This document shows, in pieces, positions 2,160-38,773 of a stretch of DNA of 41,233 bases. The stretch comes from Nitrososphaerales archaeon (lineage in GTDB: Archaea > Thermoproteota > Nitrososphaeria > Nitrososphaerales > Gagatemarchaeaceae). Under the pieces are notes generated by a model. It saw nothing but the letters and a program-made list of their open reading frames with translations, did no database searches and was not told the origin of the DNA. The stretch lies in the NCBI GenBank assembly GCA_032906765.1, contig JAJTZB010000011.1, positions 1-41,233 on the forward strand, in the 5' to 3' direction. Position numbers and translations under genes: made by a program. Numbering within the stretch: position 1 is the first letter of the stretch; every line of letters starts with the position of its first letter.

Positions 2160-3017
2160 TCAGATTCCGAGGGCCTCTCTGAGACCCTTGTACCTGTTCC
2201 TGATCGTGACCTCGGTCACCCCGGCAGCTTCTGCGACGTCTTTCTGCGTCTTCTCTTCGCCTTCCAATGCACAGGCGACGTAGAGAGCCGAAGCCGCCAG
2301 CCCCATCGGGTCCTTGCCGGCTGAGATCCCCATCGCCTTGGCCCTGAGTAGAATCTCGCGCGCCCTTCTTTGCGTTGTCTCAGACATTTGCGCCCTAGAT
2401 GCGATTCCGGATACGCACCTCGTCGCCTCGGCCACCGGCATTTTGAAATCCATCTCCCTGTGCAGGAGCCTATACGACCTTGCGAGGTCCTTGACCTTGA
2501 CATTGCTCACAGCGGCTACGTCCTTCAGGGTCCTTGGGATCTCGCCATCCCTGCAAGCGGCATAGAGCGACGCCGCCATGATAGACGTGATAGACCTCCC
2601 CCTTACCAAGCTCCTCTCGAGGGCCTTCCTGTAGAAGTAAGCCGCCTTTTCCGTGACGGCCTCTGATACCGCAAGTTTGTCCGCGAATCTCCGCAGCTCG
2701 CTGAATGCCTGTCGGAGGTTCCTGTCAGCAGACTCGTGGACCTGGCTCCTCCGGTCCCATGTCCTCAGCCTCTCGACAGTGGACTTCATGGACCCGGATA
2801 GTGACCTGCCGGACGCGTCTTTGTTGAGGCCCCCTATCACCGTGGCCAACCCCATGTCGTGGACGGCAATCGATGTGGGGGTTCCCGTCCTGCTTCGGTC
2901 GCCCTTTTCGTCGCTCGAGAAAGACCTCCATTCTGGACCCATATCCACAATCTTCTCCTTCACCACCAGTCCGCAATCGCTGCAGTAGAGTTCCGACCCC
3001 GAACCATCAATCACCAT
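2160..3017 (-). CDS. tfb: Transcription initiation factor TFB (copy 1)
   Basis: TFB bridges TBP-bound promoter DNA and RNA polymerase. The 285 residues from the first ATG hold half of the zinc ribbon (YCSDCG, about 11-16), the B-finger GPEWRSF, and two cyclin-like repeats (about 95-185 and 190-280) ending in a helix-turn-helix with VTEVTIRNRYKGL. The other zinc CxxC (CPRC) is encoded in frame just upstream, at 3030-3041, and the frame stays open to a stop at 3105-3107. No ATG, GTG or TTG occurs in that extension, so the true start may be non-standard, for example CTG at 3066-3068. The product closely resembles copy 2 at 32039-33001. The family is certain and the start is not. Confidence 0.93.
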   Translation of the reverse strand: MVIDGSGSELYCSDCGLVVKEKIVDMGPEWRSFSSDEKGDRSRTGTPTSIAVHDMGLATVIGGLNKDASGRSLSGSMKSTVERLRTWDRRSQVHESADRNLRQAFSELRRFADKLAVSEAVTEKAAYFYRKALERSLVRGRSITSIMAASLYAACRDGEIPRTLKDVAAVSNVKVKDLARSYRLLHREMDFKMPVAEATRCVSGIASRAQMSETTQRRAREILLRAKAMGISAGKDPMGLAASALYVACALEGEEKTQKDVAEAAGVTEVTIRNRYKGLREALGI

Positions 3018-14159: not shown

Positions 14160-14248
14160 GGCCCAGATAGTGTAGCTTGGTTAGCATAGGAGGCTGTGGA
14201 GTTCTTCGCGGAGACCTCCCGACGAGGGTTCAAATCCCTCTCTGGGCC
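14160..14248 (+). tRNA. tRNA-His (GTG) with a 14-nt intron
   Basis: The acceptor stem GCCCAGA/TCTGGGC pairs perfectly, and an extra 5' G at 14160 faces C73 at 14248, the G-1:C73 identity pair of tRNA-His. The anticodon stem is GGAGG/CCTCC with anticodon GTG at 14196-14198. Fourteen extra bases, about 14200-14213, lie after position 37, the canonical archaeal intron site. The T arm is GAGGG/CCCTC with loop TTCAAAT. The 3' end is the attachment site of the element that follows. Confidence 0.92.
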
Positions 14249-14250
14249 CT
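14237..14250 (+). repeat. attL-like core in tRNA-His 3' end
   Basis: CCTCTCTGGGCCCT, covering the T-stem 3' strand, acceptor strand and discriminator, is repeated exactly at 18851-18864. The integrase gene begins 53 bases downstream. Confidence 0.65.
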
Positions 14251-14302: not shown

Positions 14303-15559
14303 ATGAGACCTCATTCCGAGGAAGGCCAGAGGTCCGTCGAGGCGTTGATGGCATCGATGAAGCTGGCCGACGCCACGAAGGCGGGCCATCTGATGAGGGT
14401 GAGCCAATATGCGGGGCACCTCAAGACGACTCCAGACGAAGTCGTGAGGGAAGCCAAGGCCCATCCAAGGAAGTTCGAGGAGACGTTCAGGGAGTTCGTC
14501 CAAGCTGTAGGCAAGAACGCCAGCCCTGCGACGACCTCGTCATACCGCCATTCCCTCAAGCGCTTCCTGGAAGTCAACCGCGTGACGAGCATAAACTGGG
14601 ACTACATCGGCGAGTTCGTCCCAAGCGCAAGGAGGGCCGGGCAGGACAGGGCGCCGACGCTGGAAGAGATCCGCAAGATTGTCGACGTCGCTGACCTGCG
14701 CATGAGGTGCCTGGCCCTCTTCCTGTGCTCCTCCGGGGCCAGGATCGGCTCGGTCCCCTACCTCAGATGGCGGGACGTCGAGGAAGTCGAATCGGATGGG
14801 GAGAAGCTCGCCAAGGTGACCATATACAGGGGAGAGCCCGAGGAGTACCTCACATTCATCACGCCCGAATGCTATCGGTACCTGCTCCAGTACAGGGAGT
14901 TGAGGGAGAAGATCGGTGAGAAGGTCGTCGGGATGTCTTTCGTGTTCACCACACAACCCAACGCGCGCAAGTTCGACCAGAGCAAGGTGGGAGTCGCGTC
15001 GGTGAAGACGTTGAAGAATCAGCTCGGTGAACTTCTACGACACCTGGGCATGCGGACTGTCATCAGCGAGAGGGGAGGCTACAAGAATTACGAGTTCAAA
15101 CAGGCGCACGGGTTCAGGAAGTTCTTCAAGACGAGGATGGAGATGTCGGGGGTCAAGCCCATCATAACCGAGATGCTGATGGGGCACGCGATCGGCGTCT
15201 CGGGGAGCTACATGAAACCCACGGAAAAGGAGCTCCTCGAGGAGTACTCGAAGGCGGTCGACAACCTGACAATCATCGGCAGGGCGGGCGGGAGAGTGGA
15301 CATCAAGAACGCGTTCAGGGAACAGCTGCTAATCGTCGCTGGGTTCAACGAGGAAGAGATTGGGAAGATGGACTTGGACAAGGTCTCCGACGAAGAATTC
15401 CAACAGGTGATTCGCCGGAGGCTGCTCGGCACGATGACGAACAACGGCAACCATCAGAAGGTCATACCGCTGGGCGAGGTCGATAGCTACATCTCGAAGG
15501 GATGGGAGTTCGTCGCCGCTCTGCCGAATGACAGGGCCATACTGAAGCTTCCCCGCTGA
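14303..15559 (+). CDS. Tyrosine recombinase / integrase
   Basis: A site-specific recombinase of the XerC/phage-integrase fold. The 418-residue protein has an N-terminal core-binding (SAM-like) region (about 15-110) and a catalytic domain (about 118-325). The catalytic set is visible: Arg147 in SSGARIGS, His269-x-x-Arg272 in HGFRKFF, His295 in MGHAIG, and the Tyr303 nucleophile in GSYM. A C-terminal tail of about 90 residues follows. The gene lies directly downstream of tRNA-His in the same direction, as expected when the tRNA is the attachment site. It appears intact. Confidence 0.93.
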   Translation: MRPHSEEGQRSVEALMASMKLADATKAGHLMRVSQYAGHLKTTPDEVVREAKAHPRKFEETFREFVQAVGKNASPATTSSYRHSLKRFLEVNRVTSINWDYIGEFVPSARRAGQDRAPTLEEIRKIVDVADLRMRCLALFLCSSGARIGSVPYLRWRDVEEVESDGEKLAKVTIYRGEPEEYLTFITPECYRYLLQYRELREKIGEKVVGMSFVFTTQPNARKFDQSKVGVASVKTLKNQLGELLRHLGMRTVISERGGYKNYEFKQAHGFRKFFKTRMEMSGVKPIITEMLMGHAIGVSGSYMKPTEKELLEEYSKAVDNLTIIGRAGGRVDIKNAFREQLLIVAGFNEEEIGKMDLDKVSDEEFQQVIRRRLLGTMTNNGNHQKVIPLGEVDSYISKGWEFVAALPNDRAILKLPR

Positions 15560-18471: not shown

Positions 18472-18937
18472 CTCATCCATGTCGCGAAGCCGCTCGTACC
18501 TCCTGGCGCCCCATGCAATGGATTCGAAGATTGCCCAGATTGCCTACAAGAATGCTTGCAAGTCTTTGGTCGGTTGTGACCAGCAAAGTTGGGTAGAGAA
18601 GGAAAAGGTGTCCTTCGGAAGTTGAGGGAAGTCGCGGGATTCTAGTGGGTTGGCACTTCACTCCGCGTGAATCTGGACTCGAAAAACTAGCCTCAAACCA
18701 GAGATAGAACGTTCGGTGGCAGCCACGAATGTGATGACTTCGTTTGACCACCTTCGTTATCCTTTAGACCAGCCTGCGACGATGATTTCGAGTTGGGTTC
18801 GTAAGGCGCCTTTCGAATGGTGTTTGAACCAACATAGGTGGACTCACATTCCTCTCTGGGCCCTTCATACCATCATCACGCTCGCGCGCTCTTCGTTCGA
18901 AAGCTTTTACTAAGATTCACAGAACTATGCTGGCAGG
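18472..18937. other. Intergenic stretch containing the right end of the element
   Basis: No protein gene is supported. The attR-like 14-mer lies at 18851-18864, about 75 bases before the cyclase-family gene. Confidence 0.5.
18851..18864 (+). repeat. attR-like copy of the tRNA-His 3' end
   Basis: CCTCTCTGGGCCCT is identical to 14237-14250 in tRNA-His and has the same orientation. The rest of the tRNA is absent here, as expected for the fragment displaced by integration. Confidence 0.62.
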
Positions 18938-22190: not shown

Positions 22191-23753
22191 CTAGGCGGAG
22201 ACAGCCGCCCCGAACCTTCTGGGGTCGGCCCCGCCCGTTGCCATCCTCTTGTCCTGATCAATCAGGACGGCTTGGACACCGCCAAAGTAGAGTTCCAGAT
22301 TGCCCATTACCTGTACGTCGCCCACCAGCCCTCGCAACTCACTGACAGTGGTCTCGTCAAATCCTCCTTCCACCATCAAACCCCCAGCAGTGGGATGAAT
22401 CCGCGGAGCAGCCAACGCCCTTCCCAGGGCCATCCCCCCGTCCAAGACGTTTGTCGTCACCTGAAAGATGGAACTGATGATTCGCTCAGAGCCGGCCCCG
22501 CCGATGACGAGGAAAGGGGACCCGTCCTTGAAGACGATTGTAGGGGACATGCTGCTGACCGGCCTCTTCCCCGCCGCCACGGAGTTGGGCCTTCCAGGAA
22601 CCGTGTCGAAGTCGTGCATCTCGTCGTTCAGGAGGACTCCCAGGCCCGGCACGGTGACGCCCGAGCCGAAGTAGCACTCGATTGTCTCCGTCGCAGAGAC
22701 GACGTTGCCTGCGGAGTCGATAACGCAGAAGTGCGAAGTGGAGCCAGGGCCGTCCGAGGAACGATTGCCTCCGGTGGGGTTTGTTCCAGACCAGATCTCC
22801 TCCGCCTTCTTCTGCACGTAGGATTTAGACAGGATCTGGCTGGTGGCGGCGTCGACGAATTCTGGGTCACCAAAGCTCGGCTTCTCGTCGAGCATCGACC
22901 TCAGGATATCTATGACCGCCCGGAACATCCCTGCCTTCGTGCTGGCACGAGCTCGATTGCCGAGCTCGGCGAGGATTTCGAGACCATAGATCAACAGCGT
23001 TCCGCCAGCGCTGGGCGGCGGCATCGAGACGATCCTGAACCCTCGAGCCTCCCCTTCCACCGGTCTGCGAACTTTGGGAGCGTACCTACCGAAGTCGTCC
23101 TCAGATAAGATTCCTCCGAGGCTCCCTACGAAGGTCGAGATTTCCTTGGATGTTGTCCCGCCGTAGAATCCCTCTGGCCCGTCTTTTGCCAACTTCGACA
23201 GAGTCTTCGATAGAAGCGGGAGCTTACTGAAGCGGGCCGATCGGCCGTCGACACCGAAGACGCGGGCGGACTCGGTGAAACGCTTCAGCTTGTCCAGCGC
23301 CCCTGTTCTGTTCTCCTTCAGAATCCTTTGCGAGAGGCTGGAAACCGAGACGCCCGACTTTGCTGCGACGATTGCGGGTCGGGCGACATCTCTGAACTTC
23401 ATAGTGCCGAACTGCTCCAGAAGGAGGGCGTGCCCAGATAGCGTTCCTGGCGTGGCGACGGCCAGAGGTCCCACGCTGTTTGCGTCTGCCGCGATACGCT
23501 GGAACATGTCGGCCGAGGACTTCGCTGGCGCCGTCTCCCTGTAGTCAAGGGCGGTTGTCTCTCCCGAGGCCAGATGAATCAGGGCGAAGCCACCCCCACC
23601 TATTCCAGAGAACGCTGGCTCGACCACCCCCAGCATCAGAGATGTTGCGACCGCGGCGTCTACAGCGTTACCCCCCATTCTCAGAATAGAGGCGCCTGCC
23701 TCGGATGCAAGCGGATGGGCTGAGGTGACCACGGCGTTGTGGAGCCTATCCAA
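22191..23753 (-). CDS. ggt: Gamma-glutamyltransferase
   Basis: An N-terminal nucleophile hydrolase that cleaves gamma-glutamyl bonds and transfers or hydrolyses the glutamyl group. The 520-residue precursor has GGNAVDAAVAT near the N-terminus, and the self-cleavage/nucleophile site at Thr339 in GSTSHFCVID. SMSPTIVF and GGAGSERI follow in the small subunit. No signal peptide is visible, so unlike many bacterial GGTs it is probably cytoplasmic. It starts with TTG 23753. It fits with the nearby GS-like enzyme and the permease. Confidence 0.93.
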   Translation of the reverse strand: MDRLHNAVVTSAHPLASEAGASILRMGGNAVDAAVATSLMLGVVEPAFSGIGGGGFALIHLASGETTALDYRETAPAKSSADMFQRIAADANSVGPLAVATPGTLSGHALLLEQFGTMKFRDVARPAIVAAKSGVSVSSLSQRILKENRTGALDKLKRFTESARVFGVDGRSARFSKLPLLSKTLSKLAKDGPEGFYGGTTSKEISTFVGSLGGILSEDDFGRYAPKVRRPVEGEARGFRIVSMPPPSAGGTLLIYGLEILAELGNRARASTKAGMFRAVIDILRSMLDEKPSFGDPEFVDAATSQILSKSYVQKKAEEIWSGTNPTGGNRSSDGPGSTSHFCVIDSAGNVVSATETIECYFGSGVTVPGLGVLLNDEMHDFDTVPGRPNSVAAGKRPVSSMSPTIVFKDGSPFLVIGGAGSERIISSIFQVTTNVLDGGMALGRALAAPRIHPTAGGLMVEGGFDETTVSELRGLVGDVQVMGNLELYFGGVQAVLIDQDKRMATGGADPRRFGAAVSA

Positions 23754-28804: not shown

Positions 28805-29248
28805 CTACCTGCTCTTGTAGCAGAAGTAGGGGTATCCGCCGTTGACTAGGTTGACTGCCCTCTCCACTATCTTGTCAGAGATCTCCTTCCACTTTTCGTC
28901 CCAGTCGATTCCCTCGACAGTCAACTCCTTCTCATCCCCGCCCGTCCTGGAAGGGGAGCTGGCCCAGATGGCTCTTCCATAGAAAGGCTTCACTATGCGG
29001 ACAGACCAGCGGTCGCAGCGCGTCTTCGACCCATCCCTCCTGAAGTACTGGCACTCGCTGCAGAAGCGTGAGAGCCAGATGATCTCCTTTGTCCGCTTGA
29101 CCGTCTTGCCTATCTGCTCCAGGAGTCTCTCCGACTCCTTTCTGATCATGTCGGCAAGTTCCTTCTGCCCCTCCTCGGAGTTGGTGTAGTACTCCGGGTC
29201 CGCGGCGACAGCCTGGTACCAGCTCTCGAACTCGTTCTCTTCGGCCAA
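28805..29248 (-). CDS. Hypothetical protein with a four-Cys, zinc-like pattern
   Basis: A 147-residue acidic protein with a helical N-terminus (about 20-55) and a CSEC pair followed by TRCDRW and a final YFCY, which together could hold a metal. I recognise no family. ATG 29248 follows a TATA-like TTTTTAGT about 30 bp upstream on the minus strand. It lies between the phosphoesterase and the nicotinate salvage genes. Confidence 0.7.
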   Translation of the reverse strand: MAEENEFESWYQAVAADPEYYTNSEEGQKELADMIRKESERLLEQIGKTVKRTKEIIWLSRFCSECQYFRRDGSKTRCDRWSVRIVKPFYGRAIWASSPSRTGGDEKELTVEGIDWDEKWKEISDKIVERAVNLVNGGYPYFCYKSR

Positions 29249-29999: not shown

Positions 30000-31220
30000 C
30001 TACCTCCAGGTCAGCGACGGCTGTGAAGACTCCAGACCTCGGAGAGAGCCTGCGAGGCGGGACCGTATGCCCTCTATCCCCTCGTACCTCCGCACAATCT
30101 TCCCGTCCTCGAGCAGCGGCTTCAGCAGGGCCGACGAGCCCCTCGGCTTGGGTGAGCCTTCGAGTGCGACTGAGTCTTTGAACCCGTTCGACCTGTAGAC
30201 CGCCTTCCTTCCTCCCAGCCCTCCCCTCTTCGCCCTGAACTCCCTCCGACCTCGACCAACGACCTCGACAATCTTTGCGCTGAGGTCTATCACCGGAGGA
30301 TAAGCGACGGCCGTCCCCACTCCGAAACCATCAACGAGGTCCCTGAGTTGCCTCACAGAGTCTTCGTCGAGCCTGCCCGAGGCGATTAGCTTCACCTTCT
30401 TTCCTCCCCTGATGTCTAGCTCCCACCTCACCTCTTCTATGATTTTCCGGAAGTCGCCCCGACGGGAGGCGGGGGTGTCGAGTCTCACTCCCCAGAGCCT
30501 TGACCCGAGCACCTCGAACGCCTTGATGGACTCCGCTTTCTCGTCCCAGAACGTATCGACAAGCGCGACCCGAGGGACGCTCCTCGCGATTGTCCTGTCG
30601 AAGAGCCGCCAGGCGCGCTCTTGGTCTCCCAGGATCTGGATGAGGGCGTGCGGCATGGTTCCAGAGGGGGTGATTTTCAGCAGCTTCGCCCCGAGGACGT
30701 TGGATACTCCGTCGAACCCGGCCAGATAGCAGGCGCGCTCGACGAGAGCGACGAGGGCGGGGTGGACTCTTCTCGTGCCGAAACTAAGAAGTAACTTGTT
30801 TCCCGCCGCCATCCTGAACCTGGCCGCCCGCGTGGAGACACTTGTCGACGAGGCGAGGAGGCCGAGCAGTGGAGTCTCGTACTCAGTGAAGTCAGAGTAC
30901 CTCCCTTCGATGACCATCAGGGGTTCGTAGAGAGCAGTCGATGTGTCGGCAAGGAAGACAGACCCCTCGTCGAACGCCCAGACGTTGACGGGCAGCCCCT
31001 CGAGTAGCTTCGCAGCCTCGTAGACGCCGCTCACGACTCCCCAGTTCTGCTGGTATGGGACGTCCCTGGCGTAGACCTCCATGACAACCCTGGAGTCGAT
31101 GCGATTCCTGCCCAGGACCTCCTTCGTGTGGAGGAAGTACTCGTCCGTCGTCTCGCCGCTCTTGATTTCTTTCTCCTGGGCCAGCCAGAAGAGTCTGTCG
31201 TCGAGGTCGATGTGGCGCAT
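30000..31220 (-). CDS. pncB: Nicotinate phosphoribosyltransferase
   Basis: Makes nicotinate mononucleotide from nicotinate and PRPP, the step after PncA. The 406-residue protein has the archaeal NaPRTase layout: an N-terminal region with TTDEYFLHT, FGTRRVHPA, the SGTMPHAL turn, VDTFWDEK and IIASGR-like KLIASGRLDED, followed by a gated GFGVGTAV phosphate site. It is co-oriented with pncA and a Nudix-like gene, forming a salvage operon. Confidence 0.92.
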   Translation of the reverse strand: MRHIDLDDRLFWLAQEKEIKSGETTDEYFLHTKEVLGRNRIDSRVVMEVYARDVPYQQNWGVVSGVYEAAKLLEGLPVNVWAFDEGSVFLADTSTALYEPLMVIEGRYSDFTEYETPLLGLLASSTSVSTRAARFRMAAGNKLLLSFGTRRVHPALVALVERACYLAGFDGVSNVLGAKLLKITPSGTMPHALIQILGDQERAWRLFDRTIARSVPRVALVDTFWDEKAESIKAFEVLGSRLWGVRLDTPASRRGDFRKIIEEVRWELDIRGGKKVKLIASGRLDEDSVRQLRDLVDGFGVGTAVAYPPVIDLSAKIVEVVGRGRREFRAKRGGLGGRKAVYRSNGFKDSVALEGSPKPRGSSALLKPLLEDGKIVRRYEGIEGIRSRLAGSLRGLESSQPSLTWR

Positions 31221-32038: not shown

Positions 32039-33001
32039 CTAGCGCGCTACGATCTTCGGCGGAGCCTCTTCGAGACCCAGCTCTGCTCCGAGGTCTGCCC
32101 TCAGTCCCTTGTACCTGTTCCTGACCGTGACCTCGGTTACGCCGGCCGCGTCTGCGATTTCCTTCTGGGTCTTCACGTCGCCTTCGAGCACGCCCGCAAG
32201 GTAGAGTGAGCTCGCTGCAAGGCCCATCGGCGCCTTGCCCGCGGAGATCTCCCTCTGCTCGGTCATCCTGACAATCTCTATCGCCTTTCTGATTGTCTTC
32301 TCTGACATCCCGACCCTTGAGGCAATCCTGGTGACGTTCTTCGCCGCGTCTGCGACAGGCATGCTCAGGTTCATCTCATGGAGCAGTATCCTGTAGTCCC
32401 TGGCGATGTCCTTCTTGTTCAGGTTGCTCACAGCCGCTATATCCTTGATCGTCCGGGGCGTCTCCGTGTCCCTGAATGCGGCGTAGAGCGAGGCTGCGGC
32501 GATGCCGTTTATCGAGCGTCCTCTCAGCAACCCGTGTTCAAGCGCCTTCCTGTAGATGTACGCGGCCTTCTCCTTGACGGCCTGGGACACGACAAGCTTG
32601 TCGCCGATCTTCTCGAGCTCGGTCATGGCCAGCCCGAGGTTCCGCTCCATGGAGCCCATCGCGGGGGAGCGGTTGTCCCACTTGCGGAGCCTGTCGATGG
32701 TGGTCCGCATAGGAGACGCTAACGCCCTGCCCGAGGCGTCTCTGTTAGACCTGCCCACGACCGTGGAGAGCCCCATGTCCCGTCGCGTTATCGACGTCGG
32801 GGCGCCGGTCCTGGCCTTGTTCTCTGCGTCGTCGGCGAAGGACCTCCACTCCGGGCCGAGGTCAATCGACTTTGCGCTGACGACGAAACCGCAGTTGCTG
32901 CAAGAGAGCTCGCCGCTGGTAGAATCCTCAACCAACGTCCTCTTGCCGCAGTTGGGACACCTATCAGATACCTGAAGCACGGATGACCTTTGTTTACTCA
33001 A
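32039..33001 (-). CDS. tfb: Transcription initiation factor TFB (copy 2)
   Basis: The second TFIIB-like factor in the window. The 320-residue protein has a complete zinc ribbon (Cys15, Cys18, Cys34, Cys37), the B-finger GPEWRSF (48-54), two cyclin-like repeats (about 115-205 and 210-305), and the closing helix-turn-helix VTEVTVRNRYKGL. It has an ordinary ATG start, unlike copy 1. Multiple TFBs in archaea support alternative promoter selection. A palindrome cluster just upstream may regulate it. Confidence 0.96.
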   Translation of the reverse strand: MSKQRSSVLQVSDRCPNCGKRTLVEDSTSGELSCSNCGFVVSAKSIDLGPEWRSFADDAENKARTGAPTSITRRDMGLSTVVGRSNRDASGRALASPMRTTIDRLRKWDNRSPAMGSMERNLGLAMTELEKIGDKLVVSQAVKEKAAYIYRKALEHGLLRGRSINGIAAASLYAAFRDTETPRTIKDIAAVSNLNKKDIARDYRILLHEMNLSMPVADAAKNVTRIASRVGMSEKTIRKAIEIVRMTEQREISAGKAPMGLAASSLYLAGVLEGDVKTQKEIADAAGVTEVTVRNRYKGLRADLGAELGLEEAPPKIVAR

Positions 33002-33104: not shown

Positions 33105-33599
33105 TTACGTGTTGATAGCTTTCCTGACCAGCTTGGTGCCGCAAACCGGGCACTCGGTGAGCTTCGGGTTCGTGTACTGCTTGCCGCACCCTTTACAGAA
33201 AAGCCTCCAGGTGATGTTCTTCCATTCCCCTCCCTTCAGCGTGGTCTCCGACAATGGGATGGACAGGACCTCGGCCACGTTCCTCACTGCGAAATCATCC
33301 GAGACGAGGTGGACGTTGCCGTCGGTCCTCGAGAGGTCCAGCGCGAGGGCCAGCAGGGACACGTCGGTATCCGAGAGGGCGCCGAAGTCTCCAGTCTTTG
33401 ATGAGATTGACCTGACGCGGCTGACCGACTCTGCCGACGGCTCGGTCACCTGCACCCTGGTATGAATCAGGGAAGAGCCGACGTTGTGGTGCTTGACTTC
33501 CTGCAGGACGAGATACGTGGTGTAGTAGCGGCCGCTGCCCTGGTACGGGATGCCCGCGTAGAAGGCAGTTGAATCGAGGATGTACGCAGGCTCAGACAA
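33105..33599 (-). CDS. nob1: Nob1-like ribosome-maturation endonuclease (PIN domain plus zinc ribbon)
   Basis: Nob1 cleaves the 3' end of small-subunit rRNA during ribosome maturation. The 164-residue protein starts with a PIN domain, with Asp9 in YILDSTAFY, a Glu in VLQEVKHHN, and Asp pairs in LSDTDVSLLALA and VSDDFAVRN. A C-terminal zinc ribbon (CKGCG and CPVCGT) completes the archaeal Nob1 layout. It lies upstream of TFB2 on the same strand. Confidence 0.9.
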   Translation of the reverse strand: MSEPAYILDSTAFYAGIPYQGSGRYYTTYLVLQEVKHHNVGSSLIHTRVQVTEPSAESVSRVRSISSKTGDFGALSDTDVSLLALALDLSRTDGNVHLVSDDFAVRNVAEVLSIPLSETTLKGGEWKNITWRLFCKGCGKQYTNPKLTECPVCGTKLVRKAINT

Positions 33600-33758: not shown

Positions 33759-34742
33759 CTACGGAATGAGAGTAGTGCGCACCATCGAATTCGTTGCTGT
33801 CTTGACGAAATCTAGGTCGGCCTTCGCCCCATATACGAGTGGTTCGAACTCCGCGACGTTGCCCGAAGTTAAGACCTGATTCATCGATGAAGTGTATTTC
33901 CTATATGCTTCAAGCACGCTCATCTCTCGGCCTTCGTAAAATAGCATCTGCTCATCGGCAGAACGTCCGATCTCCTCCAGCTGTCTTACCATGTCCACGC
34001 TCGGATAATAATACCTGACGTGCTGTCGTCCAAGCTTGCTAACGAAATCCTCTCGTTTAACCTCGAACTTCAAGCACCGCTCGAGAAACCTCTCTCTGTC
34101 AGCGAGCTTGAATTGATCTGAGAGATCGAGCAGAAGACCCAGCCCTTTACTCCGAGAGCTGACGTGGATCAGGCCCTCAATATTGAGTAATCCAACCTGC
34201 GAGTTAATGTTGGCGCATATGGCAAGTCGTCTTTGGTGCAGATAGTTGATTGCGGCATTGGCAGGTGAATATCCTCTTGCCCTGGCCCTCGGAATCGAAA
34301 CAAGCTCGCGAACGAACCTTTCCCTAACTCTGCTCTTGAAGTCCAGATTCGCAATTCTTAGAATTCTCTTGTAGGCTGCCCAATAATGATAATTGGTTCG
34401 CGCTTCGAACGCTAGCAACTGGTCAAGCGTAGAGCGCCCGAGTTGCTTCAACCTGAGATATTCAATCAGTTGTGCTCTGGTCTCTGGATATGAGGTGTGG
34501 GGCCCCGGCAGATCAAGAATTCTCCTCGTCGCGATGATTACGCTCAGCATTAACGACTCCGCCATGGCTTTGGTGAGTTGGCCACCAGCTTTGATCATCT
34601 CTGGCATTCCGGTCTTCAGTCCACCTCGCCGTTCCGTCATCGTCTGTATCCTCCTCTGAGTAGTGGAGACACCCTTTCCTCCCAGCAATCGCACTTGGTG
34701 GGCCGAGAGACCGTAAGGCAGGCGCTGGGGCGCTTCCATCAT
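33759..34742 (-). CDS. cas1: Stand-alone Cas1-family integrase with reduced N-terminus
   Basis: Cas1-family proteins insert DNA in CRISPR adaptation and, as casposases, mobilise casposons. The 327-residue protein carries the Cas1 alpha-domain pattern: Glu113 in LLAFEARTNYHYW (Cas1 GIEG..Y site), SPANAAINYLH (Cas1 DPxNAxLNY), His193 in EGLIH (Cas1 GFxH), and Asp206/Asp209 in LLLDLSDQF. The spacing from His to Asp matches known Cas1. The usual N-terminal beta-sandwich has no room: only about 50 residues precede the helical domain, and they look like a basic helix-turn-helix. ATG 34742 follows a TATA box, giving a leaderless start. No cas2, other cas gene, CRISPR array or polymerase is nearby. 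Confidence 0.78.
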   Translation of the reverse strand: MMEAPQRLPYGLSAHQVRLLGGKGVSTTQRRIQTMTERRGGLKTGMPEMIKAGGQLTKAMAESLMLSVIIATRRILDLPGPHTSYPETRAQLIEYLRLKQLGRSTLDQLLAFEARTNYHYWAAYKRILRIANLDFKSRVRERFVRELVSIPRARARGYSPANAAINYLHQRRLAICANINSQVGLLNIEGLIHVSSRSKGLGLLLDLSDQFKLADRERFLERCLKFEVKREDFVSKLGRQHVRYYYPSVDMVRQLEEIGRSADEQMLFYEGREMSVLEAYRKYTSSMNQVLTSGNVAEFEPLVYGAKADLDFVKTATNSMVRTTLIP

Positions 34743-34766
34743 TTGGCATACATAAACGGGAGGCAA

Positions 34767-34775
34767 GTTATAGTT
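34767..34775 (-). promoter_or_regulatory. TATA box of the Cas1-family gene
   Basis: On the minus strand it reads AACTATAAC, with a predicted start at about 34745. It lies just before the 3' end of the Sm-like gene, so the two genes may have separate transcripts. Confidence 0.5.
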
Positions 34776-34778
34776 TCG

Positions 34779-35108
34779 TCAAGAATTCATTGTGGCGAAA
34801 AATTCCTTTCGACCCATTTTCTTTCTCTTCCATTCGTATAATAGCCTGGGTTCTCCAGCCTCTCGAACCGCCATTCTCCTTATCTCTTGGTAGTGCAGAT
34901 CAACCATATCGGTTTCGAATCCCAAAGCCCTAACAGGAATCCACTTCTTGCGCTTGGGCTTGAATCGCACCGCATCCCACAGGACTATGACCCCCAGCTC
35001 ATAGTCGTCAATCCTTCCGCAAAACTTCTTTCCACGTTTAGTTTCGATAAAAACTGTCTTGCTTACGTAGTCATTAATTCGGGCAGGCCACTTCGTCTTA
35101 CCTTGCAC
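34779..35108 (-). CDS. Small protein with Sm/LSm-like pattern
   Basis: A 109-residue protein started at GTG 35108, about 27 bp after a TATA box. Residues about 12-70 follow the Sm fold series: VFIETKRGKKFCGRIDDYELGVIVLWDAV, read as strands around a conserved Gly and Asp, followed by a basic segment and a strand FETDMVDLHY. LSm proteins bind RNA. The C-terminal 30 residues are very basic. It is directly upstream of the Cas1-family gene, so a nucleic-acid-binding accessory role is possible. The fold call is tentative. Confidence 0.55.
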   Translation of the reverse strand: MQGKTKWPARINDYVSKTVFIETKRGKKFCGRIDDYELGVIVLWDAVRFKPKRKKWIPVRALGFETDMVDLHYQEIRRMAVREAGEPRLLYEWKRKKMGRKEFFATMNS

Positions 35109-35130
35109 GTTGACGCAGAACCAAGTCCTT

Positions 35131-35139
35131 GCTATAAGG
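35131..35139 (-). promoter_or_regulatory. TATA box of the Sm-like gene
   Basis: GCTATAAGG (plus-strand reading) is centred about 27 bp before GTG 35108. Confidence 0.45.
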
Positions 35140-35239
35140 AAGACATGGACCGCGATAGTTTCACAAGGGCGTCTCCCTCTTCGCCAACCGCCGCAAGCAG
35201 GCACCACTGGTTAAATCTCGGTTCCCGATCCGAATCGCT

Positions 35240-35632
35240 GTGCCCGAGAGGCCCCTGATCCGCAACCTTTCCATCGAGATGGTCGAGATTCCTCGAATGG
35301 AATTCACCAGCGTCTGGGTTGACGACGAGCACGTCCTGATCGAGCTCTGGGCGAAGGACGACGGGCAGCGCGAACTCCTCGGGAGGGTCGCGAAAAACAG
35401 GAAGGAAGGCGAACAGTTGCTGGTGGAGCTGGACGGCAGGGCGCTGCTCAGGAGGATTCGGACGATCAGTCTCAGGCCGGGCTTCCAGGAGAGGGACAAG
35501 CTGGTCTTGACGATCATTCTCGGGCCAGTCTTGTCAGAGCCGCAATGTAATGAGACTCGTCTGATTCAATCTCGTTTCCTCCTCCGCCGGGCTCCTTTCC
35601 GTTCCCGCTTTCCTCTTTTCTTACCTGCATGA
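35240..35632 (+). CDS. Unknown protein, host-like body with a possibly foreign C-terminus
   Basis: A 130-residue frame beginning with GTG 35240, behind a TATA-like GGTTAAATC (35209-35217). Residues 1-100 use GC-rich codons like the surrounding chromosome and show regular strands (VWVDDEHVLIELW, LVLTIILGPV). After about residue 100 the bases change to an AT-richer, low-complexity Arg/Phe stretch that overlaps the convergent gene. The C-terminus may have been replaced by inserted DNA. No family is recognised. Confidence 0.5.
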   Translation: MPERPLIRNLSIEMVEIPRMEFTSVWVDDEHVLIELWAKDDGQRELLGRVAKNRKEGEQLLVELDGRALLRRIRTISLRPGFQERDKLVLTIILGPVLSEPQCNETRLIQSRFLLRRAPFRSRFPLFLPA

Positions 35633-36054
35633 TACGTGCGATCTGGGAGCTTCTCAAAACTCTCTAGGAGTTCCTTCTCATACTCCTGGGCTTCCTTTTC
35701 CTCCTCTTCGGTCATTGGGTGCTTCCATGGCATTTCTGACAACTTCCGTTGCTGTTCCACTAGTCTTCTCGCCTTCAGGGTATCAGTGAAAGACAGCTCG
35801 AAGTCATGAGAATTGTCGAACGAGCAGTAGTACTTCACGATTATCTTCCCTGGAACTATCCTTCCATTGCTCATCTTGAGGAATGCAGGTGAATCGCAGT
35901 ATGGACAACTCGGACTTGGCGCGCCTTCGCTTGGCGAACTCTTGAAATCCTTGACGAGCCAATCCCCGTCTTCAATCCTCATGTCTGTGACGTATGGTTG
36001 ACCTCGGTGTATTTGTAAGTAGCTCCTTTGGGTTCTGTTAGGTTGTCGGGCCAT
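35566..36054 (-). CDS. Unknown zinc-ribbon-like protein
   Basis: A 162-residue protein started at ATG 36054. It has a CPYC pair and a later YYCSF near a His (SFDNSHDF), suggesting a partial zinc ribbon in the middle (about 45-85). A long acidic helix follows, and the end is a cluster of Lys/Arg (KKRGKRERKGARRRRKR) that may bind nucleic acid. Earlier in-frame starts reach 36141. No family is recognised. It is in the same patch as the Cas1-family gene. Confidence 0.55.
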   Translation of the reverse strand: MARQPNRTQRSYLQIHRGQPYVTDMRIEDGDWLVKDFKSSPSEGAPSPSCPYCDSPAFLKMSNGRIVPGKIIVKYYCSFDNSHDFELSFTDTLKARRLVEQQRKLSEMPWKHPMTEEEEKEAQEYEKELLESFEKLPDRTYHAGKKRGKRERKGARRRRKRD

Positions 36055-36352
36055 GATGGAGAAACATCGGACATGGATTCCCCGAAGAGTAACAGTGCCC
36101 GGTGGCATGTGCCAGAAATTCCCAAACGAGTACCAGGCCAAACTAGCACCGAAAACGGGGGTTAATGTGCCAGAAGAGGGGGGATCACGTTCGCCACGTG
36201 TTGGCCGCAGTCCTCCTTTCGTGTGAGCAAGCGAAACCGCCTTTTCTGTTGTCCCGTATCTATGACGAGTTCATGAACTGGCGAATAGGCGTTCGACAGT
36301 TTCGCAATAGGCAGCTGCCTGGGTGCAAGTTTCGACAAATCTCACTAACACA

Positions 36353-36755: not shown

Positions 36756-37532
36756 TCATTTCAGGAGGTCGGAGTAGATTTCCGGGCGTCTGGCGCGCAG
36801 CCTTTCCTCCCTATGACGCCTGATTGTTGCTAGGTCAAGGTTGGCCACTAGGATTTGGGATCGAGGACCGGAGCTGGCGAGTACCTTTGGATACACTATC
36901 CTGTCCTTCTCTCCGACCGTGAATCCAACGATCAGGCTCCCTCCCTGAAACTTAGGAGCTTGTAGGACGTTGGGGCTGACAACCGGGACTCTGTTCTCGA
37001 GTGCCCTCACCTTGACATACAGTTTCCAGGGCTTCAAGCCGGCGGAGGATATCCTGGCCGGGGCGAAGAGTACTTCGGTTCCATTTAGGGCAAGAATCCT
37101 GGAGACCTCAGGGTAAACCAAGTCATGACAGATGGTGATTCCTACCTTCACTCCACTCGCGTCGAAGGTGAAAAGCGCGTTCCCCGGGATTGCCCTCCTC
37201 TTCTCTCTGCCGAAAAGGTGAGTCTTCTGCTGTCTTCCGACCTCTCCTTTCGGCCCAAGCAAGACGCTCTCTACCATGGTTGCGCTCTCTCTCCTCGTGA
37301 ATTCCCCGCCAGAGATGATGTACGCCCCTGTATCTGTCGCTATCTGAGCGAGCGCCTCGACCACCTTCTCGATGTTGTTGATGGCATCGGGAACCCAGTG
37401 CTCAGGCAAACAGATGACCTCTGCCTTGTCGGCGGCTTGTCGCGTCATCCGTAATGCCCGTCTCACAACTTCTGACTTCGACCCGCTGCAGTCGAGCTGG
37501 ACCGCAGCTACTCGCAAACGGCCGCCTTTCAC
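36756..37532 (-). CDS. Carbon-nitrogen hydrolase (nitrilase superfamily)
   Basis: Nitrilase-superfamily amidases hydrolyse C-N bonds through a Glu-Lys-Cys triad. The 258-residue protein has Glu44 (CLPEHW), Lys103 (QQKTHLFG) and Cys135 (ITICHDLVYPE). The length fits the omega-amidase/NIT branch. Its start overlaps the coaBC stop by four bases (ATGA), so the two are translationally coupled. The substrate is unknown. Confidence 0.9.
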   Translation of the reverse strand: MKGGRLRVAAVQLDCSGSKSEVVRRALRMTRQAADKAEVICLPEHWVPDAINNIEKVVEALAQIATDTGAYIISGGEFTRRESATMVESVLLGPKGEVGRQQKTHLFGREKRRAIPGNALFTFDASGVKVGITICHDLVYPEVSRILALNGTEVLFAPARISSAGLKPWKLYVKVRALENRVPVVSPNVLQAPKFQGGSLIVGFTVGEKDRIVYPKVLASSGPRSQILVANLDLATIRRHREERLRARRPEIYSDLLK

Positions 37533-38773
37533 TCGCTGCGGAGCTCCCTAACTGCCAGGCTGAGAATGCCGTCTGCAATCCTCCTCTTCGGAGCTCTGGA
37601 GAGGTGCGTTGTCTCGCCCCCTGACGAGACCACGGTCACTTCGTTCTCATCCGCTCCAAAGCCAATCCCCTCCCTGCCGACGTCGTTCACCACGACCATG
37701 TCAGCGCCCGATTCTCTGAGTCTCTGCCTTGCCCTACCAAGCAGCTCGGCCCTGGGAAGGTTATGCTCCGCCTTGAATATCACCAAGAAGGTCGAAGGAC
37801 TCACTCTCTTCGCTTGGTCGATTATCTTGGGTGTCCTGGCCAGTTCCAGCGTGAGCGTTTGGCTCTTCGAAGATTCTATCTTGGTGTTGAGGATTTTGAC
37901 CGGCCTGTAGTCTGATACGGCGGCCGCGGCCAGCATCAAGTGGTACTTTGAATGCGACAGTTGCGAGATGACCTGCTTGTACATTTGTTCGGCTGTATTC
38001 ACTGCGAGCACCTTCACCCCAATCGGAGGTTCGGCAGAGCCAGGACCGTAGACAAGCGTGACACTCGCCCCTCTCCTCTCCGCCGCAGACGCCAGGGCGA
38101 CCGCCATCTTCCCCGAACTCCTGTTCGTCAGGACTCTGACCGGGTCGATCTGCTCGGCAGTCGGCCCACCGGTTATCAGAACCTTCATGCTGCGCATATC
38201 TTTGTTCGAAACAGTTAGTATCAATGAGGAAAGTATTTCCTCGACACTTGCGAGTTTCGCCTTCCCTTCATCGATTGTCGGAGGGATGATGACTACGCCC
38301 ACCCTCTCGAGCTTCTTGAGGTTCTCCTGTATGATGGGGTGACGCATCATTGTGTCGTGCATCGCTGGCGCAATCAGGATTGGAATCCCGGCCCCAAGGG
38401 CAGAGGAGACGTACGACGTGACCGGGGAGTCGTCGATTCCTGCGGCGATCTTCCCTATCGTGTTCGCAGTCGCGGGCGCAATCAGGATAGCGTCAGCCTT
38501 CCCAGCGCCGGTAGTGTGCACGACATGCTCTATCTTGCCAGTGAGTTCAGTTACTACGGGGTTTCCCGTTGCCCACTCCATCAAGTCTGGATGAATTATC
38601 TTCTGGGCGGCCGCGGTCATGACCGCGTGTACGTCTGCGCCATGCCTCATCAGACTCCGGGCTATGTCTGGCGCGAGGTAGGCCGACACGCTCCCCGTGA
38701 TTCCCAGGATGATTTTCTTCCCCCTGAGCTCCTCCCCTTCAGTTCCGATTATTTCCTTGGAAGGGTGTTCCAT
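37529..38773 (-). CDS. coaBC: CoaBC: phosphopantothenoylcysteine decarboxylase / phosphopantothenate-cysteine ligase
   Basis: A bifunctional enzyme of coenzyme A synthesis. The 414-residue protein has an N-terminal flavoprotein domain (GITGSVSAY, VVHTTGAGKADAILIAPATANT split as about residues 100-125, PAMHDTMM) and a C-terminal ligase domain from about 195 (ITGGPTAEQIDPVR, NRSSGKM, AAVSDYRP). ATG 38773 is preferred because a TATA-like ATAAATC lies about 30 bp upstream; earlier ATGs precede it. It is followed, with overlap, by the nitrilase gene. Confidence 0.94.
   Translation of the reverse strand: MEHPSKEIIGTEGEELRGKKIILGITGSVSAYLAPDIARSLMRHGADVHAVMTAAAQKIIHPDLMEWATGNPVVTELTGKIEHVVHTTGAGKADAILIAPATANTIGKIAAGIDDSPVTSYVSSALGAGIPILIAPAMHDTMMRHPIIQENLKKLERVGVVIIPPTIDEGKAKLASVEEILSSLILTVSNKDMRSMKVLITGGPTAEQIDPVRVLTNRSSGKMAVALASAAERRGASVTLVYGPGSAEPPIGVKVLAVNTAEQMYKQVISQLSHSKYHLMLAAAAVSDYRPVKILNTKIESSKSQTLTLELARTPKIIDQAKRVSPSTFLVIFKAEHNLPRAELLGRARQRLRESGADMVVVNDVGREGIGFGADENEVTVVSSGGETTHLSRAPKRRIADGILSLAVRELRSE

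Follow-up and report, generated by a model that had tools for sequence, protein, structure and literature searches.

The window, a 41,233 nt stretch of DNA that makes up contig C11 of genome G000, from a soil archaeon, contains an open reading frame (ORF) for a reduced Cas1-family protein at positions 33759–34766 on the minus strand (335 aa from a TTG start at 34766, or 327 aa from an ATG at 34742). The locus raises the question of what a Cas1 catalytic half is doing in this genome when it is accompanied neither by its beta domain nor by the genes of a CRISPR system or a casposon. The host belongs to group I.1c Thaumarchaeota, and the relatives found among named assemblies fall in this group as well, Ca. 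Gagatemarchaeum being one of them.

Three lines of evidence identify the protein. First, Pfam PF01867 matches it at E=2.4e-7 with 30.6 bits, above the curated cut-off of 22.3; several PADLOC Cas1 models also match (best 8.8e-11), hhalign supports the assignment at E=9.6e-7, Archaeoglobus fulgidus Cas1 (PDB 4n06) is recovered by sequence at E=0.0098, and TIGR00287 matches at E=3.5e-7, which is below that model's own cut-off. Second, the AlphaFold2 model has a helical core mostly at pLDDT 70–93, and a Foldseek comparison of this predicted fold returns 4n06 (E=3.9e-6, probability 1.00), the casposase 6opm (E=1.2e-5, probability 1.00), and 7kfu. Third, in an alignment with 27 reference Cas1 proteins the four active-site residues fall in the catalytic columns, and they are invariant among all family relatives that cover these positions. 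E121 (E113 from the ATG; codon 34404–34406) corresponds to the catalytic glutamate in 27/27 references, H201 (H193 from the ATG; 34164–34166) to the histidine of GFxH in all of them, and D214 and D217 (D206/D209 from the ATG; 34116–34127) to the D-x-x-E/D pair, with all codons on the minus strand. The fourth position of this pair is D throughout the family, and the loop around H193 is modeled at pLDDT <50. The initial annotation had proposed both a Cas1-family integrase and these same catalytic residues, and had named profile and structure comparisons as checks; the profile, PADLOC, PDB, and Foldseek results bear out the Cas1 assignment, with Cas1 and casposase structures both returned.

The beta-sandwich dimerization domain is absent from the protein, as had also been noted. 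Homology begins at approximately residue 63, and the Cas1 helical half (residues 63–327; 33786–34580, minus strand) shares 36–42% identity with the corresponding part of the large fusion proteins described below. The ~54 residues that stand where the beta domain would be (34581–34742, minus strand) have low pLDDT and a coding score similar to that of the rest of the ORF. A basic helix-turn-helix (HTH) had been read into this segment, a reading that did not hold up: residues 1–52 of the 327 aa form fall at pLDDT 31–39 with no confident structure, and no HTH profile matched. On its sequence, the ORF is a divergent Cas1 with a complete active site and without the beta domain, and the protein has probably retained Cas1 chemistry.

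The description of this gene as lacking CRISPR or casposon partners agrees with our searches. Cas2 (PF09827) was not found in G000 (1.77 Mb, 95.6% complete) and was detected in 7 of 14 controls; neither the window nor 60 kb of contig C6 shows a CRISPR array, in line with the initial reading of no repeat array; and no PolB or HNH profile matched among the window ORFs scanned. No terminal inverted repeats (TIRs) or target site duplications (TSDs) are found around the window cas1, and no convincing TIRs at the related G005 and G013 loci. Comparison with empty sites gave no exact element boundaries, as the flanks are too diverged and no close empty site was found. Carriage by viruses was rejected: no relatives of the Cas1 family, of the putative Zn-ribbon ORF upstream of the window gene, or of nuc, a gene that accompanies the full-length homologues, were found in viral contigs. 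The term 'stand-alone' is accurate within the window and fails for the genome as a whole. G000 has two Cas1-family genes only, the second being a full-length homologue on contig C6, 36% identical to the window protein and accompanied by partner genes.

Homologues of the window Cas1 are present in 7 of the 46 genomes of the host family Gagatemarchaeaceae. A contig scan with the window protein alone as query gave no matches. In the sample of the order, homologues are found in the same seven genomes and none besides, and in the class sample in six of the seven. Among these samples the lineage is confined to the Gagatemarchaeaceae, and it is seemingly undescribed: no description of such a family was found in the literature searched, which covered few subscription papers.

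Intact homologues are much larger fusion proteins, found as open frames of 830 aa (G000 contig C6), 850 aa (G013), and 897 aa (G005). From the N-terminus onward they comprise an alpha/beta region, then a winged-helix-like segment, a pair of Cys-rich modules (one CxxC-x8-C, the other a CxxC/CxxC ribbon), and finally the Cas1 catalytic half; the domain names other than Cas1 are read off the alignment. An extra beta-like stretch lies between the Cys modules and the Cas1 half in G005 and G008. Its identification as a beta domain was considered and rejected; strands are predicted and the resemblance is suggestive by eye, yet hhalign gives P=0.075–0.6, which is not significant. The N-terminal half of the fusions is present only in Cas1-bearing genomes, has no sequence relative in the PDB, and matches no reverse transcriptase (RT) or Cas4 profile. 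Foldseek matches other than Cas1 are unusable because the whole-protein model is too poor (pLDDT 53). A conserved host-family gene beside NAPRT in the window (28805–29248) has a CxxC...C spacing like that of a fusion Cys module; derivation of the module from this gene was rejected, as no significant similarity is found beyond the Cys spacing.

Two further genes accompany the fusions. The first, nuc, is a ~140 aa gene that lies beside the fusion and is divergently transcribed. Among 300 genomes of the order it was found in 7, and six of these also have a Cas1-family gene. Within the host family this association gives a Fisher p=5e-6, uncorrected for shared ancestry, and the occurrences are phylogenetically clustered. 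Its D-F-x-L-P ... E-C-W pattern is PD-(D/E)XK-like by eye, and its matches to nuclease-family profiles are sub-threshold; it is a putative nuclease of this type. Contig C6 of G000 contains several full and broken nuc copies (22554–22894, 30136–30282, and 36814–37700; L128, L010), and two copies in tandem adjoin PCNA. The second, a double LAGLIDADG gene (phrog_5046, E=3.6e-27), is next in line in several fusion copies, and these linked LAGLIDADG genes have foreign GC3.

The genomic positions of the homologues indicate how the family may have spread. Gene order in the host family runs NAPRT, TFB, Nob1, eIF5A, PP-loop, SRP54, Pus10, L21e, RpoF, DUF655, KsgA, TrmJ, LAFG, and L10e, with PCNA nearby; several of these names are sequence readings without a profile match, and LAFG is a label that denotes no family. 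The site between LAFG and L10e is occupied by the Cas1, nuc, and LAGLIDADG set in G005, G008, G009, and G013, and is empty in G001, G002, and G004. Copies in G029 and G002 lie between PP-loop and SRP54, the copy on G000 contig C6 is adjacent to PCNA, and the window copy is located upstream of Nob1 (33105–33599, minus strand; PIN domain and Zn ribbon, PF17146 2.6e-15), a host gene and conserved synteny anchor detected in 35 of the 46 family genomes. Every placeable copy therefore falls within one neighborhood of a 1.6–2.8 Mb genome, which argues for long residence with local movement or homing over free transposition. Ancestral residence, local copying, homing, and repeated loss fit these gene orders better than free transposition does. 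Two TFB (TFIIB) paralogues in the window (2160–3017 and 32039–33001) are 59% identical.

Loss is common: of eight loci with a homologue, those of G002 and G008 have decayed, that of G009 is split across contigs, and two, the window copy and that of G029, are truncated at the N-terminus; from these proportions the window copy may itself be on its way out. The fusion N-terminal half and the nuc and LAGLIDADG partners are all missing from it. The phylogeny supports the Cas1 family clade at 100/100 and places the window copy beside the fusions at 81/46; alternatives in which it falls inside the fusion clade are not rejected by the AU test (p=0.36 and 0.19).

The surroundings of the window copy also differ from those of the fusions. 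Immediately upstream is an ORF (34779–35117, minus strand) that is weakly Sm/LSM-like: matches in three libraries (LSM E=0.11, snRNP E=0.11, snRNP-G E=1) all fall on the Sm1 region. It ends 13–37 bp before the cas1 start and is probably co-transcribed with it. Next is the putative Zn-ribbon ORF (35566–36081, minus strand; a CxxC motif read from the sequence, GC3 0.55). Among the 46 family genomes, homologues of either ORF are found only in their own genome. The stretch 33759–36081 forms a low-GC island upstream of Nob1, at 51.5% GC compared with 59.4% to its left. GC3 is 0.58 in the window cas1 and 0.54–0.55 in the two upstream ORFs, as against 0.78 in the C6 fusion and 0.66–0.82 in host genes; the C6, G005, and G013 fusions are all host-like in GC3. 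The low GC3 and the family-unique upstream ORFs suggest that the window copy was imported separately and is not a duplicate of the C6 gene.

Elsewhere in the window, a tRNA-His gene (14161–14249) is followed 54 nt later by the start of a tyrosine integrase ORF (14303–15559; PF00589 E=5e-5, below the cut-off), and a 13 nt copy of the tRNA-His 3' end, CCTCTCTGGGCCC, is located at 18851–18863, as expected of attachment sites. The segment 14161–18863 is a probable small integrated element.

The explanation we favor, with moderate confidence, is that the window gene is an N-terminally reduced, probably still catalytic member of a new lineage of Cas1-solo proteins restricted to the host family, a third such group that belongs to neither CRISPR nor casposons. 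The strongest challenge to it is that the gene is a relic, a recently truncated and non-functional fusion copy left by a rearrangement between Nob1 and eIF5A. The fates of the G002, G008, G009, and G029 copies and the missing N-terminal half and partners would be expected of such a remnant; a synteny breakpoint coincides with the window cas1, and its low GC3 could mean relaxed selection. However, the two neighboring ORFs are also low in GC3, which favors import over decay, and of the six frames the annotated one scores best for coding. The catalytic core is moreover open and retains all catalytic residues, as well as 60 of the 89 sites invariant in the fusions. With ~19 nonsense changes expected along its branch without constraint, and none observed, selection over most of its history is suggested, an argument that is valid only if the truncation is old; the window copy may have been truncated recently. 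On balance, the relic explanation appears rather unlikely.

A second alternative, that the gene is a casposase left from a casposon that has degraded or diverged strongly, is improbable. The intact active site and the absence of Cas2 are in its favor, as are known fusions of casposases to HTH or Zn-binding domains (PMC4046053). In addition, the family groups weakly (74/70) with the casposon-type Cas1 proteins of the order, and the genes for two of these adjoin EF-2, a known target of family 1 casposons (PMC6563490); this weak affinity suggests a distant common origin with casposon-type Cas1. Nevertheless, the family sits on a long stem (2.85 substitutions per site), no PolB, HNH, TIR, or TSD is found in the window and no TIRs are evident at related loci, all placeable copies share one neighborhood, and the protein lacks the beta domain on which casposase dimers are based (PMC6977970). 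The phylogenetic comparison with Cas1-solo groups that the initial annotation proposed gives a weak casposon-type affinity and does not place the gene in any described group. An origin from a CRISPR system was rejected, as none of the CRISPR Cas1 clades sampled in the tree includes the family and Cas2 was not found. The two EF-2-adjacent genes (L101, L102) are of casposase type and come from two genomes of the same order; three other Cas1 open frames of 560–675 aa in genomes of the order (L078, L079, L080) are possibly RT-Cas1 or Cas4-Cas1 fusions. Least probable of all is that the host has domesticated the enzyme as a Cas1-like nuclease for repair or chromosome maintenance and passes it on vertically: copies from four genera share one housekeeping neighborhood, GC3 in the C6, G005, and G013 fusions resembles that of host genes, and vertical inheritance has a precedent in Cas1-solo group 1 (PMC4046053), but 39 of the 46 family genomes, complete ones included, gave no copy, decay is frequent, and the linked LAGLIDADG genes and the window copy show foreign GC3.

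If the window gene is indeed a reduced but competent Cas1, it would be expected to join DNA 3' ends to a target by metal-dependent strand transfer, to cut branched DNA in the reverse reaction, or both. In the full-length fusions, the winged helix and Cys modules would pick the DNA site, and nuc would trim or cut the DNA. Together these genes may form a DNA-integration module, selfish or recently domesticated, that resides near its ancestral locus, is kept there by homing-like or local copying, and decays time and again. The Cas1 and casposase dimers that have been studied form through the beta domains, and loss of the HTH inactivates a casposase (PMC6977970); the short form would thus have to rely on a further protein to assemble. 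Since both the targeting half and the beta-sheet dimerization half are missing, the window Cas1 would require another route of assembly, possibly via the Sm-like upstream protein or via the full-length homologue in trans. A more speculative proposal, which we regard as possible but doubtful, is that these genes represent a third kind of Cas1 system besides CRISPR and casposons: a homing or defense module resident in group I.1c archaea and formed by the winged-helix/Cys-module-Cas1 fusion, the small nuclease, and the LAGLIDADG protein, from which the beta-less Cas1 and its Sm-like partner have split off as a minimal working integrase. The initial annotation had suggested a minimal integrase of a new element type. 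Its reduced Cas1 and intact active site stand; the element is less apparent, as no TIR or TSD is found and the kin of the protein are large fusions.

The paper that defined the non-CRISPR Cas1 proteins recognizes two groups, one catalytically incomplete and the other casposon-borne (PMC4046053). Adding a third group, one whose active site is intact and whose architecture differs greatly, would provide an independent sample of what Cas1 is capable of, and bears on the recruitment of Cas1 by CRISPR systems. The beta-less window protein also makes the dispensability of the dimer-forming beta domain testable.

The family can be compared with several known systems. CRISPR systems include multidomain Cas1 proteins of 550–900 aa, such as Cas6-RT-Cas1 and Cas4-Cas1. 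The fusions resemble these in being large multidomain Cas1 proteins, a likeness echoed by the Foldseek match to 7kfu, and differ from them in that no Cas2 or array is found and the N-terminal half matches no RT or Cas4 profile. Free-standing LAGLIDADG homing loci offer a different parallel: the same intergenic site is patchily occupied across genera and several copies have a LAGLIDADG gene adjacent, although the core gene here is a Cas1 fusion and the window copy has no LAGLIDADG neighbor. Group 2 of the Cas1-solo proteins comprises casposases with PolB, often HNH, and TIRs, sometimes fused to HTH or Zn-binding domains (PMC4046053). With the casposases of Methanosarcina mazei, Aciduliprofundum boonei, and thaumarchaeal family 1, the family shares the Cas1 fold, a complete active site, the lack of Cas2, and fusion to DNA-binding domains, and the tree links it to them weakly (74/70); unlike them, it has no PolB, HNH, TIR, or TSD, its window copy lacks the beta domain, its other members have a large N-terminal fusion, and it is confined to one neighborhood and one archaeal family. 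Group 1 occurs in Methanomicrobiales only and has an incomplete active site (PMC4046053). The family resembles it in being lineage-restricted, apparently vertical, and outside CRISPR, whereas all four catalytic residues are present here, the host belongs to another phylum (thaumarchaeal), and the architecture is different. Neither the group 1 nor the group 2 definition fits this family.
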